A stretch of 64,000 nucleotides of DNA from Puerhibacterium puerhi (GTDB lineage: Bacteria > Actinomycetota > Actinomycetes > Actinomycetales > Cellulomonadaceae): positions 1-64,000 of the forward strand of contig NZ_WUWN01000017.1 in NCBI RefSeq assembly GCF_009846865.1. The letters are read 5' to 3'. This document shows, piece after piece, positions 50,347 through 56,150 of this stretch. The notes beneath the pieces are model-generated. The model was not told the origin of the DNA. It saw nothing but the letters and a program-made list of their open reading frames with translations, and ran no database searches. Positions within the stretch are counted from its first letter, which is position 1. Each line of letters starts with the position of its first letter. The position numbers and the translations under genes are program-made.

Positions 50347-51966
50347 TCACTCCCACTCGATCGTCGCCGGCGGCTTGCTCGTCACGTCGAGCACCACGCG
50401 GTTGACCTCACGCACCTCGTTGGTGATGCGGGTGGAGATGGTGGCCAGCACGTCGTACGGCAGGCGGGTCCAGTCGGCGGTCATCGCGTCCTCGGACGAC
50501 ACCGGGCGCAGCACGACCGGGTGGCCGTAGGTGCGGCCGTCGCCCTGGACGCCCACCGAGCGCACGTCGGCCAGCAGCACCACGGGGCACTGCCAGATCT
50601 CGCGGTCCAGGCCGGCGCGGGTGAGCTCCTCGCGGGCGATCGCGTCGGCGGCACGCAGCACGTCCAGGCGCTCGGCGGTGACCTCGCCGATGATCCGGAT
50701 GCCCAGGCCGGGTCCGGGGAACGGCTGGCGCCAGACGATCGCCTCAGGCACGCCGAGCTCGAGGCCCACGGCGCGCACCTCGTCCTTGAACAGGGTGCGC
50801 AGCGGCTCGATCAGCTCGAACTGCAGGTCGTCCGGCAGGCCGCCGACGTTGTGGTGCGACTTGATGTTCGCCGCGCCCTCGCCGCCGCCGGACTCGACGA
50901 CGTCGGGGTAGAGCGTGCCCTGGACGAGGAACTTGACCTCCTCGCCGTGGGCGCCGGCCTCGGCGACCAGGTCGCGGGCGGCGTCCTCGAACACGCGGAT
51001 GAACTCGCGGCCGATGATCTTGCGCTTGGTCTCCGGGTCGGTGACGCCGGCGAGCGCGGTCAGGAAGCGCTCCTTCTCGTCGCGCACGACCAGGCGCACG
51101 CCGGTGGCGGCGACGAAGTCGCGCTCGACCTGCTCGGCCTCGCCGGCGCGCAGCAGGCCGTGGTCGACGAAGACGCAGGTGAGCTGGTCGCCGACGGCGC
51201 GCTGGACGAGCGCGGCCGCGACCGAGGAGTCGACGCCGCCCGACAGGCCGCAGATCACGCGCGCGTCGCCCACCTGGGCGCGGATCTTCTCGACCTGCTC
51301 GGCGATGACGTTGTCGGGCGTCCAGTCCGGGGCCAGGCCGGCGCCCTCGTAGAGGAAGTGCTCGAGCACGGACTGGCCGTGCGCGGAGTGCTTGACCTCC
51401 GGGTGCCACTGCACGCCGAACAGGCGGCGGGCGGTGTCCTCGAACGCCGCGACCGGGGAGCCGTCCGACGTCGCGAGGACCTCGAAGCCCTCGGGCGCGC
51501 GGTGCACGGCGTCGCCGTGGCTCATCCAGGCGGTCTGGTTGGCGGGGGTGTCCGCGAGCAGGACGCCGGCCGCGCAGACCTCCACCTCGGTGCCGCCGTA
51601 CTCGCGCAGGCCCGTCTGGGCCACCTCGCCGCCGAGCGCCTTGGCCATCGCCTGGAAGCCGTAGCAGATGCCCAGCACCGGCACGCCGGCGTCGAACAGC
51701 GCCGGGTCCACGAACGGCGCACCCTGGGCGTACACCGACGCGGGCCCGCCGGACAGGATGATCGCCGCCGGGTTCTTGGCGAGCATCTGCTCGACCGACC
51801 ACGTGTGCGGGACGATCTCGGAGTACACGCGAGCCTCGCGCACGCGGCGCGCGATGAGCTGGGCGTACTGGGCGCCGAAGTCGACGACCAGGACGGGGCG
51901 GTGCTGCTGCTCGGCGGCGGACTCGGCGGCGGCGTGGGAGACGGGGGCGGTGGCGGGAGACGTCAC
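50347..51966 (-). CDS. guaA: GMP synthase (glutamine-hydrolysing)
   Basis: 539 aa from GTG at 51966; TAGACT (51973-51978) ends 6 nt upstream, so it is probably leaderless. Class I amidotransferase: [20 protein letters not shown], catalytic Cys in [17 protein letters not shown] (about residue 100), His/Glu in [14 protein letters not shown]-pyrophosphatase: P-loop [16 protein letters not shown] (about 245). C-terminal dimerisation domain ends [11 protein letters not shown]. Converts XMP to GMP, downstream of the PurH product IMP. Confidence 0.98.
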
Positions 51967-52061
51967 CGCTCCAGTCTAGTGGCCGCGCACGGCGCGCAGC
52001 CGTGAGGCCGCTCACCGCTCCGGCGGGCGCCCCGCCGGAGGGCGCCGGCGCTCCGGGCGCG

Positions 52062-52523
52062 TCAGGCCAGGTAGCGCCGCTCGAGCGCGGCCAGCTTCTC
52101 CTGCCCGTCGGCGTGCACCCGACGCTCCACGATGAACGACATCACGGGCACGACGCCGGCGAAGACCATCGTCGCGAGCCGGCCCCAGCCCCACCGCATG
52201 GTGGCCCAGGCCTGGAGCACGGTGACGAGGTAGACCACGTAGACCCACCCGTGCACCGGCGCGACGATCCAGGTGGCGTCGACCAGGCCGCTGACGTCGC
52301 CGACCCACCACTGCACCGGGTACTTGAGGATCATCCAGACGGTGAGCAGCAGCAGCATCACACCGGTGACGATGGCCATCACGCGGTAGCGGGCGAGGGC
52401 GCCGCGGGCCTTGCGGATCGCGTCGGCCGCCTGCGCGCGGGAGACGGCGCCGGCGGCGTCGCCGGGCGTCGCGGGGGTGGGCTCGGGGGTGGGCTCGGGG
52501 GTGTGCTGCGGGGCGGTGCTCAC
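52062..52523 (-). CDS. DUF3817 family membrane protein
   Basis: 153 aa from GTG; TAGGCT (52530-52535) ends 6 nt upstream. A Pro/Thr-rich N-terminus (HTPEPTPEPTPATPG) precedes three transmembrane helices of the DUF3817 type: ALARYRVMAIVTGVMLLLLTV, VHGWVYVVYLVTVLQAWATM (with the conserved PVHGW), LATMVFAGVVPVMSFIVERRV. The family is common in actinobacteria, often beside guaA. Function unknown. Divergent from the ABC exporter pair. Confidence 0.88.
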   Translation of the reverse strand: MSTAPQHTPEPTPEPTPATPGDAAGAVSRAQAADAIRKARGALARYRVMAIVTGVMLLLLTVWMILKYPVQWWVGDVSGLVDATWIVAPVHGWVYVVYLVTVLQAWATMRWGWGRLATMVFAGVVPVMSFIVERRVHADGQEKLAALERRYLA

Positions 52524-52593: not shown

Positions 52594-54420
52594 GTGCGCC
52601 CGCTCCCCTTCGCCGACCCCGGCACGCCCGACCTGCGCGGCCCCTGGGCCTACCTGCGGTGGGTGGCCCGTCGCCAGGCGGGCGTGCTGACGGCCGCCCT
52701 GCTGTGCGGCGTCGTGGTCTTCGCCTGCCAGGCCGTCCAGCCCTACCTCGTCGGCGAGATCGTCGACAGCGCCACGGCCGGCGGCCTCGACGCCGCCACG
52801 TGGCGCCTGGCGGCGCTGCTGCTCGCCGTCGGGCTCGCGCTCACCGGCACCGCGGTGCTGGGCCACCGCCTGGACGTGCGCAACTGGCTGCACGCCACGT
52901 TCCGCTCCTCGCAGCTGGTCAGCCGCACCGTCAGCCGCTCCGGGCAGGCCGTCTCCGCCGAGCTGCCGACCGGCGAGGTGGTCTCCGCCGTCGCGAACGA
53001 CACGTTCCGCATCGGCGAGCTCTACGCGATGGCCGCCCAGTTCCTGGGCTCCCTCGTGGCCTACGCGGTGGTCACCGGGCTCATGCTCGCCTCCTCGGTG
53101 GAGCTCGGCCTGGTCATCGCCCTGGGCCTGCCCGTCGTCGCCGCCGTCCTGGCGCTCCTGGTGCGGCCGCTGAACCGCCGCCAGTCCGCGCAGCGCGAGG
53201 CGTCGGGCCGGCTGACGACGCTCGGTGCCGACACCGTCTCCGGGCTGCGCATCCTGCGCGGCATCGGCGGCGAGAAGGTCTTCACCGACCGCTACCGCTC
53301 CCAGTCGCAGCGGGTGCGCGCCGCCGGCGTCAAGGTCGCCCACACGCAGTCGTGGCTCGACGCGCTGCAGGTGCTGCTGCCTGGCCTCTTCGTCGCCCTG
53401 GTCGTCTACCTCGGCGCCGTCCACGCCATGTCGGGGCGGATCAGCACCGGCCAGCTCGTGTCGTTCTACGGCTACGCCGCGTTCCTGTCGTGGCCCGTGC
53501 AGCTGGCCACCCAGTTCCTCAAGATCGCGACCAACGCCCACGTCTCGGCGAAGAAGCTCATCACCGTGCTGCGGGTGCAGCCCGCCACCGGGACCCGTCC
53601 CGCCACGGCCACGCCGCCCGCGCCCGGCGCCGTGCTGCGCGACGAGACCACCGGCGTCGCGCTCGAGCCCGGCCGGGTGGTCGCGCTCGTCTCCCCCGAC
53701 CCGGACGAGTCGGCCCGCGTCGCGGTGCGCCTGGGGCGGTTCGACGACGCGGCCGAGGCCGCCACGCCCGTCACGCTCGGCGGCGTGCCGCTGGCGGACC
53801 TGCCGAAGGACCACCTGCGCGAGCGGGTCGTGGTCGCCGAGGCGACGCCGACGATCTTCTCCGGCCGCCTGGGCACCGAGCTCGACGTCCGCGACCGCGC
53901 CGCGGTGGCCGACCTGGAGCGCGCGATGCACGTCGCGGACGCCGGCGACGTGCTCGACTCCGTGCCGGACGGGCTGGCCGGCGAGCTGCCGGAGAAGGGC
54001 CGGTCCCTGTCCGGCGGGCAGCGCCAGCGCGTGGCGCTGGCGCGCGCCCTGCTCACCGAGCCGGAGATCCTCGTGCTGGTCGAGCCGACGAGCGCCGTCG
54101 ACGCGCACACCGAGGCGCGGATCGCCGCGCGCCTCGCCGAGGCCCGGCGCGGACGCACCACCCTGGTCGTCACGGCCAGCCCGCTCGTGCTCGACCACGT
54201 CGACGAGGTGCTGTTCCTCGACGGCGGGCGCGTCACGACCCGCGGCACGCACCGGGAGCTCCTCGAGCGTCCGCGCGCCGCCGAGGGCGGCGAGGCGGCG
54301 GCGCGCTACCGCGCCGTCGTCGGCCGCTCGCTGGACGAGGCGCCCGCCGACGCCCTCGCCCCGACGGGCCTCGGCGCCACCGACGCCGCCACCACCGACC
54401 TCGCGGAGGACCGCGCATGA
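52594..54420 (+). CDS. ABC exporter half-transporter with decayed nucleotide site
   Basis: 608 aa from GTG. Six-helix exporter domain (about 20-320), then an NBD. The NBD kept the signature LSGGQRQRVALARAL (about 470) and D-loop SAVD. The Walker A region reads LVSPDPDESARVAV (about 365) with no GxxGxGKS. The Q-loop Gln is lost (VAEATPTIFSG), Walker B reads LVLVEPTS without the Asp, and the H-loop His is lost (VVTASPLV). It can therefore only donate the signature to a partner's ATP site. It overlaps the intact-P-loop partner gene by 4 nt. Substrate unknown; multidrug or lipid export is possible. Confidence 0.93.
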   Translation: MRPLPFADPGTPDLRGPWAYLRWVARRQAGVLTAALLCGVVVFACQAVQPYLVGEIVDSATAGGLDAATWRLAALLLAVGLALTGTAVLGHRLDVRNWLHATFRSSQLVSRTVSRSGQAVSAELPTGEVVSAVANDTFRIGELYAMAAQFLGSLVAYAVVTGLMLASSVELGLVIALGLPVVAAVLALLVRPLNRRQSAQREASGRLTTLGADTVSGLRILRGIGGEKVFTDRYRSQSQRVRAAGVKVAHTQSWLDALQVLLPGLFVALVVYLGAVHAMSGRISTGQLVSFYGYAAFLSWPVQLATQFLKIATNAHVSAKKLITVLRVQPATGTRPATATPPAPGAVLRDETTGVALEPGRVVALVSPDPDESARVAVRLGRFDDAAEAATPVTLGGVPLADLPKDHLRERVVVAEATPTIFSGRLGTELDVRDRAAVADLERAMHVADAGDVLDSVPDGLAGELPEKGRSLSGGQRQRVALARALLTEPEILVLVEPTSAVDAHTEARIAARLAEARRGRTTLVVTASPLVLDHVDEVLFLDGGRVTTRGTHRELLERPRAAEGGEAAARYRAVVGRSLDEAPADALAPTGLGATDAATTDLAEDRA

Positions 54421-56150
54421 AGCTGCCCATCGCCGACGGGCGCACCACCTGGCGCTACGCCGTCGGGATGCTGCGCCGCCACCGCGGGGCCTTCACGGTC
54501 ATCGCGGTGCTGCACGTGCTCGCCGCGACGGCCGGCCTCGTGGGGCCGTGGCTCCTGGGGCGGCTGGTCGACGACGTCACCGCCGGCACCACCGCCGACC
54601 ACGTGCGCGACCTCGTGCTGTTCGCCGTCGCGACGATCGTCGCGCGCGCCGTGCTGCAGAAGGTCGCCCAGCAGCGGTCGATGGTGTTCGGCGAGTCGGT
54701 GTTCGCCGAGATGCGCGAGGAGTTCCTCGACACCGTCACCGCGCTGCCCCTGTCGGTCGTCGAGCGCGCCGGCACCGGCGACCTCGTGGCCCGCACGACG
54801 AACGACGTCAACAAGATCCAGCACACGGTGCGCTTCGGCCTGCCCCAGCTCGTCGTCGCCGTGGTGACGATCGTGCTCACCGTGGCGGCGACCCTGCTGC
54901 TCTCCCCGCTCGTGGCCGTCGCGATGTTCGTCGGGCTGCCGATCCTGCTGGTGGCGACCCGCTGGTACCTGCGCCGCGCCGAGCCCGCCTACCAGCGCGA
55001 GTCGGCCGCGTACGCGGTGCTCAACGGCACCGTCACCGAGTCGGTCGAGGGTGTGCGGACCGTCGACGCGCTGCACCTGGGCGCGCGCCGCACCGGCCGG
55101 GCCGACGCCGACCTGGCCGAGGCCTTCGCCGCCGAGACGGCGACGCTGAACCTGCGCTCGGTGCTGTTCCCGAGCGTGGACCTCACGTTCGTCCTGGCGC
55201 CGATCTCGGTGCTCGTGTGGGGCGGCTGGCTCGCGGCCCAGGGCAGCGTCTCCGTCGGCACGGTCACCGCGATCGTCATGTACACGATGCAGCTCACCGG
55301 GCCGGTGTGGAACCTCATCTTCTGGCTGGACGAGATCCAGGTCGCCGCCACCTCGCTGTCGCGGATCATCGGGGTGCGGCTCGTGGCGCCGGACCGCGAG
55401 GCGGGCGACGCCGTGCCGGCGTCCGAGACGGTGACGGCGCGCGGCGTGCGCTACGCCTACCGCGAGGGGCACGACGTGCTGCACGGCATCGACCTCGACC
55501 TGCGCCCGGGCGAGCGGCTGGCGATCGTCGGCCCCTCGGGCGCCGGCAAGTCCACCCTGGGCCGCATGCTCGCCGGCATCCACCCGCCCACCGGCGGGTC
55601 GGTGACGGTGGGCGGGGTGCCGCTCGTCGAGCTGCCGCTGGAGGACCTGCGCCGCCACGTCGCGCTGGTCACCCAGGAGCACCACGTGTTCGTCGGGACG
55701 GTCGCGGACAACCTGCGCCTGGCGGACGTCGACGCCGCCCCCGAGCGGCTGCGAGACGCGCTCGCCGCCGTCGACGCCCTGACGTGGGTGGACGCCCTGC
55801 CCGAGGGGCTGCACACCGAGGTGGGCTCCGGCGGGCACCCGCTGACGCCCGCGCAGGCGCAGCAGCTGGCGCTGGCGCGGCTCGTGCTGCTCGACCCGCA
55901 CACGCTGGTGCTCGACGAGGCGACGTCGCTGCTGGACCCGCGGGCCGCGCGGCACCTGGAGCGCTCGCTCAACGCCGTGCTCGCGGGTCGTACGGTGGTG
56001 GCGATCGCCCACCGGCTGCACACCGCGCACGACGCGGACCGGGTCGCGGTGGTGGACGGCGGGCGGATCACGGAGATCGGGCCGCACGACGAGCTCGTCG
56101 CCGCCGGCGGCGAGTACGCCCGGCTCTGGAACAGCTGGCAGCACCAGTGA
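54417..56150 (+). CDS. ABC exporter half-transporter with intact Walker motifs and decayed signature
   Basis: 577 aa from ATG. Six-helix exporter domain (about 20-310), with GDLVARTTNDVNKIQHTV and EPAYQRESAAYAVLNGTVTE. NBD: Walker A VGPSGAGKSTLG (about 370), Q-loop ALVTQEHHVFVGTVADNL, Walker B TLVLDEATSLLD with catalytic Glu, H-loop IAHRL. The signature is altered to LTPAQAQQLALARL instead of LSGGQ. It thus supplies the only usable Walker A/B of the dimer, and its own signature would face the partner's dead site. Cotranscribed with the upstream half. Confidence 0.94.
   Translation: MKLPIADGRTTWRYAVGMLRRHRGAFTVIAVLHVLAATAGLVGPWLLGRLVDDVTAGTTADHVRDLVLFAVATIVARAVLQKVAQQRSMVFGESVFAEMREEFLDTVTALPLSVVERAGTGDLVARTTNDVNKIQHTVRFGLPQLVVAVVTIVLTVAATLLLSPLVAVAMFVGLPILLVATRWYLRRAEPAYQRESAAYAVLNGTVTESVEGVRTVDALHLGARRTGRADADLAEAFAAETATLNLRSVLFPSVDLTFVLAPISVLVWGGWLAAQGSVSVGTVTAIVMYTMQLTGPVWNLIFWLDEIQVAATSLSRIIGVRLVAPDREAGDAVPASETVTARGVRYAYREGHDVLHGIDLDLRPGERLAIVGPSGAGKSTLGRMLAGIHPPTGGSVTVGGVPLVELPLEDLRRHVALVTQEHHVFVGTVADNLRLADVDAAPERLRDALAAVDALTWVDALPEGLHTEVGSGGHPLTPAQAQQLALARLVLLDPHTLVLDEATSLLDPRAARHLERSLNAVLAGRTVVAIAHRLHTAHDADRVAVVDGGRITEIGPHDELVAAGGEYARLWNSWQHQ

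Follow-up and report, generated by a model that had tools for sequence, protein, structure and literature searches.

We report a pair of adjacent genes in Puerhibacterium puerhi that encode the two halves of an ABC exporter, one of which (half A) has no P-loop. The P-loop is not simply erased but is replaced by a conserved acidic loop of the same length and, judged from the sequences of its relatives, the loss is a feature of an old and widespread clade and not an oddity of one genome, which an earlier reading of this pair from its letters alone (the sequence-only reading) could not see. With a probability of about 0.7, we propose that the two proteins form an obligate heterodimer that binds and hydrolyzes one ATP per cycle, while the opposite site would serve as a nucleotide-free, conserved contact or hinge.

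Two coupled half-exporters with complementary losses

The window, the whole 64,000-nucleotide stretch of DNA that was analyzed, encodes both proteins on the + strand: half A, a transmembrane domain (TMD) followed by a nucleotide-binding domain (NBD) without a P-loop, at 52594..54420 (608 aa, GTG start), and half B, with intact ATP-binding motifs and an LTPAQ signature, at 54417..56150 (577 aa, ATG start). These frames bear out the interval 52594-56150 previously assigned to the pair. They overlap by four bases, ATGA, the start of B lying on the stop of A, and are translationally coupled ABC half-exporters: PF00664 (ABC_membrane) and PF00005 (ABC_tran) score above the curated Pfam cut-off in both. 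The ABC_tran profile is covered in full in B (1-137); in A the match begins at profile position 46 of 137, past Walker A. The TMD-NBD order, the PF00664 TMD and the division into two half proteins differ from the NBD-TMD-NBD-TMD layout of the PDR (Pdr5) family, and the models of A and B, each with a long-helix exporter TMD joined to an NBD, match TM287/288, TmrAB and MsRv1273c/72c over their full length. By TMD, NBD and fold, A and B are half-transporters of the type IV (MsbA/TM287-288-like) fold that would assemble as a heterodimer.

In ABC transporters, one half supplies the Walker motifs of an ATP site and its partner half the signature. Half B has an A-loop Tyr348 (55458..55460), a Walker A GPSGAGKST (residues 372-380; 55530..55556), a Q-loop Gln420 (55674..55676), a Walker B and D-loop LVLDEATSLLD (497-507, with D500-E501; 55905..55937) and an H-loop His532 (56010..56012), all on the + strand, together with an altered signature LTPAQ (476-480; 55842..55856, +) whose derived consensus is LTPAQAQQ. 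Half A, also on the + strand, carries the acidic loop SPDPDESA (367-374; 53692..53715) at the Walker A place, where B has G372-PSGAGKS-T380; AEATP (415-419; 53836..53850) at the Q-loop place, with A417 for Gln; a Walker B remnant LVLVEPTSAVD (493-503; 54070..54102), with V496 for Asp; and TASPL (527-531; 54172..54186) at the H-loop place, with A528-S529-P530 for H-R-L. It retains the signature LSGGQ (472-476; 54007..54021), which it would donate to the live site, and the D-loop S-A-V-D503. These residues agree with the sequence-only reading, which had described A as lacking the P-loop, Q-loop Gln, Walker B Asp and H-loop His while keeping LSGGQ and the D-loop, and B as keeping Walker A, Q, Walker B Glu and His but with LTPAQ as its signature. 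To this we add that A has lost its A-loop aromatic as well, along with most N-terminal beta strands, and that the Walker B Glu, E497, is retained in A, a point absent from that reading.

AlphaFold models of the two proteins, which are monomers with neither nucleotide nor partner (mean pLDDT 91.8 for A and 89.1 for B), have MsRv1273c, TmrB and TM287 as their nearest folds. In the model of A, only three residues separate strand 362-366 from helix 370-381, where B has a six-residue P-loop between strand 367-371 and helix 378-385; the first two strands span 3 residues each in A vs 11 each in B. An extended helix is thus predicted to take the place of the phosphate loop in A, with the adenine-binding strands shrunk, and a nucleotide would be unable to bind A in the usual way.

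Relatives, distribution and evolution

The search for orthologous pairs with the same P-loop loss, suggested in the sequence-only reading, was carried out as a census of 160 loci plus the window, in which A and its partner were located by profile and their NBDs aligned; leaving out one conventional locus (L213) gave 159 A halves and 158 partners. The census families span Actinomycetes, other classes of Actinomycetota were spot-checked, and the genome searches covered Actinomycetota. The Walker A Lys and the Q-loop Gln are each found in 0/159 A halves vs 158/158 partners, and the H-loop His follows the same split (0/159 vs 156/157). GxxGxGK is found in all 158 partners and the Walker B DE in 157/157. 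Conversely, every A half has the SGG core of the signature, followed by Gln in 158 of the 159, and the D-loop Asp (159/159), while neither the SGG core nor SGGQ occurs in B (0/158 for each). Walker B of A is mixed, with Asp in 13/159 and Glu in 140/159. The losses are therefore complementary, as had been claimed for the single pair: in all pairs examined, the motifs of one site are all kept and those of the opposite site nearly all gone. B adjoins A in 158/159 loci. At one locus (L390), A seemed to be fused to another protein in a 3234-residue frame, which is a read-through of a high-GC open frame and has no other domain.

The census sample was picked for its resemblance to sequences without a P-loop, but a P-loop accounts for little of a 300-900 bit score, and members that bear one would be expected to have turned up. 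Profile searches of 297 + 296 + 396 genomes, with their weakest matches checked, returned no intermediates that bear a P-loop but are otherwise clade-like. The boundary is sharp: with the A2 profile, checked places scoring at least 436 bits are without a P-loop and those at or below 429 bits have one. The nearest P-loop-bearing relatives, at 387-429 bits, are ordinary Actinomycetota heterodimers (L385, L388 and L389) with the usual one-degenerate-site pattern; their half A also donates LSGGQ, but it has an intact G..G.GKS and reads LDDATSAVD, and the B signature is LSAGE. Among the 39 nearest genomes, orthologues are set apart from other exporters by full-length matches of 457 bits or more, followed by a gap, and the few weaker matches are further clade members. 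The P-loop loss is identical throughout a 21-sequence alignment. No relative within the clade has an intact P-loop; one at the same residues had been named in advance as a finding that would overturn the reading of the pair.

When bacterial species were scanned with a single genome for each, at least 575 relatives were confirmed, the best 80 of which are mostly from Cellulomonadaceae, Promicromonosporaceae and their neighbours. Class-wide, 137/297 genomes have a match at E < 1e-75, and spot checks found members in other classes of Actinomycetota as well. In a full-length tree the A halves form one clade and the B halves another, with ordinary half pairs in between; a tree built from TMD columns, without the NBDs, gives identical clades, ruling out an artefact of the degenerate domain. 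Two subclades seen among the A halves recur among the B halves, so the two genes have stayed together. On the tree, 1 change accounts for the Walker A Lys, 4 for the Walker B Asp in A, and 1, in subclade II, for the loss of the D-loop of B, which reads ATAEAG for ATSxLD there. All members thus share the loss of the P-loop, the Gln and the His, and the remaining losses are later or variable; since 13/159 A halves keep the Walker B Asp, this residue was gained or lost separately from the P-loop. Subclade II comprises L192-L212, L271, L281 and L288, and the loss of its B D-loop completes the loss of the dead site.

What is new in this clade is that the lost motifs have been replaced by conserved new ones, which could not be recognized from one pair. 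The loop in A has the length of a P-loop in 157/159 halves, with a consensus xDPDExA and Pro at position 4 in 145/159, and the net charge of the 9-residue stretch is -1 to -4 in 150/159, where it is +1 in all 158 B halves. A Ser-Pro stands at the H-loop in 158/159 A halves; in B, the signature-helix Gln is kept in 157/158 and xTPAQAQQ is itself a conserved motif. Such derived residues, conserved across both subclades, are unlike decay. Purifying selection acts on the NBD of A: over 14 close pairs, median dN/dS is 0.12 for this domain and 0.09 for the A TMD, compared with 0.09 and 0.12 for the NBD and TMD of B.

A putative single-ATP exporter

The role of the degenerate ATP site of asymmetric exporters is debated: current models assign ATP that is not hydrolyzed there the part of a glue (PMC12038006), and the site has been argued to have a function since its sequence has not diverged further (PMC7756269). 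The statement in the sequence-only reading that such exporters normally retain a Walker A on both sides agrees with the literature consulted on MsRv1273c/72c and Pdr5 (PMC12038006, PMC7756269, PMC8421411). The mycobacterial MsRv1273c/72c (PDB 9iqg, 8wcx) resembles A/B in fold (TM-scores of 0.83/0.88 for the A model to chain A), in gene-pair organization, and in combining a consensus with a degenerate site in the same polarity, but it has Walker A in both halves; ATP is bound at both sites, and the ATP at the degenerate site is proposed to act as a glue that keeps that side closed (PMC12038006). TM287/288 and TmrAB, too, are type IV exporters and heterodimers in which one site is degenerate; their degenerate half corresponds to A and their consensus half to B. 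Their degeneracy, however, mainly concerns the Walker B Glu and the partner signature, their P-loops are kept, and nucleotide is bound at the degenerate site (PMC7756269). The consensus site is complete across A/B as in the TM287/288 type, while the degenerate-site Walker A which that type keeps is gone. The closest precedent for complementary loss, closer than the systems named in the sequence-only reading, is yeast Pdr5 (PDR/ABCG), in which one half has changes at the Walker A Lys, the Walker B Glu and the H-loop His and the signature of the other reads LNVEQ (PMC7756269); there, Walker A is kept except for Lys to Cys (PMC7756269) and ATP occupies the degenerate site (PMC8421411). Pdr5 differs in being a single polypeptide with reversed NBD-TMD order and another fold class. 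In the open-access literature, we found neither an ABC exporter without Walker A in one half nor experiments on any clade member; IlaJ, the subject of one of the papers, has an ordinary Walker A (PMC7230496).

In the mechanism that we propose, the pair would have exactly one ATP site, to which B contributes its Walker A, A-loop, Q-loop, Walker B and H-loop motifs and A its LSGGQ and D-loop; as this site requires both halves, the heterodimer would be obligate. The opposite site would hold no nucleotide. Its two faces, which in A consist of the acidic DPDE loop, the extended helix and the Ser-Pro and in B of xTPAQAQQ, may form a conserved protein-protein contact in place of the ATP 'glue'. The dead side would then act as a hinge that holds throughout the opening and closing of the live side, with a single ATP driving the cycle.

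Could the degenerate site still hold ATP or ADP loosely without hydrolyzing it, as in Pdr5, where nearly every degenerate-site motif is changed and ATP is nonetheless present? The asymmetric exporters of the cited studies do bind ATP at this site (PMC12038006, PMC8421411), the Walker B Glu kept in most A halves counts against a nucleotide-free site, and so does the aromatic of some kind found near the A-loop position in 21/159, which may allow residual nucleotide binding in those members. Yet the loop of A is acidic, contains Pro and has no Gly pattern, its charge is negative in 150/159, most A halves lack the A-loop aromatic, the A model has a helix where the phosphates would sit, and the B signature is gone too, which together make a loosely held nucleotide quite improbable. 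The dead site might instead be in neutral decay, with nothing replacing ATP and the NBD of A serving only as a signature donor without any special hinge contact. The greater variability of A (mean column identity 44% vs 53% for B), its variable Walker B Asp and the single loss of the B D-loop in subclade II would fit such decay; the retention in both subclades of new dead-site motifs (Ser-Pro, the loop Pro and acid, xTPAQAQQ) and a dN/dS about as low in the A domain as elsewhere argue against it, and we regard it as unlikely.

That A is a broken gene, whether through a sequencing error or a frameshift or as the pseudogene of a normal exporter half, is what a P-loop missing from an otherwise recognizable NBD could suggest. 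A frameshift in this NBD had indeed been named as a way in which the reading could fail; none was found, the coupled frames are intact and full-length, the loop is common to 159 loci, and these orthologues together with the dN/dS values leave essentially no room for such an explanation. The system appears instead to be a stable, naturally occurring one-ATP pump. Finally, A and B might not be partners, B pairing with another signature-bearing half and A having a non-transport role, as two A loci without B within 8-20 kb could indicate; we consider this very unlikely given adjacency in 158/159 loci, mirrored trees and exactly complementary motifs.

Whether a large ABC exporter lineage runs on a single ATP-binding site, its second site being a nucleotide-free protein hinge, such that degenerate-site ATP is dispensable in type IV exporters, seems to us evenly balanced. 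Here the divergence of the degenerate site is complete on its two faces and the site was rebuilt, providing a natural system in which to test one ATP per cycle without mutations; the relatives represent several stages (A with or without the Walker B Asp, B with or without its D-loop). Public annotation of half A as an 'ATP-binding protein' is misleading. Plasmid records NZ_CP012477 and NZ_CP030864 annotate A as 'ABC transporter ATP-binding protein', the absence of the P-loop being known from relatives and not from these two records.

Genomic neighbourhood

The pair looks like a vertically inherited core locus. In Cellulomonadaceae and relatives, guaA-DUF3817 is located near one end of it and SURF1-phosphoketolase near the opposite end; within reach of the best 80 loci of the at least 575 relatives are guaA (57/80), SURF1 (71/80) and phosphoketolase (69/80). 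In the window, guaA and a DUF3817 protein (50347-52523) adjoin the pair in this conserved neighbourhood. A guaA-like neighbour, with GATase and GMP_synt_C domains in the one scanned, also stands beside the pair in four families beyond that of the window. An aminotransferase after B was rejected as an operon partner, being found in 5/80 of the same best loci, and the small neighbours of the pair include no recurrent family, only scattered MarR, TetR and STAS proteins.

In several genomes, subclade II members have NRPS, chorismate-binding and FecCD uptake genes as neighbours, and since some members adjoin siderophore genes, it may prove feasible to identify a substrate. In two genomes of family f34 (L355:8603-10315 and L387:3008-4711), A has no nearby B; such a lone A cannot make an ATP site alone and must therefore borrow a partner or do something else. 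The A half of L355 adjoins a 3189-residue NRPS frame. At another locus (L348:6-4700), a single 1565 aa frame with chorismate-binding, condensation and AMP-binding domains is an apparent salicylate-synthase/NRPS fusion.
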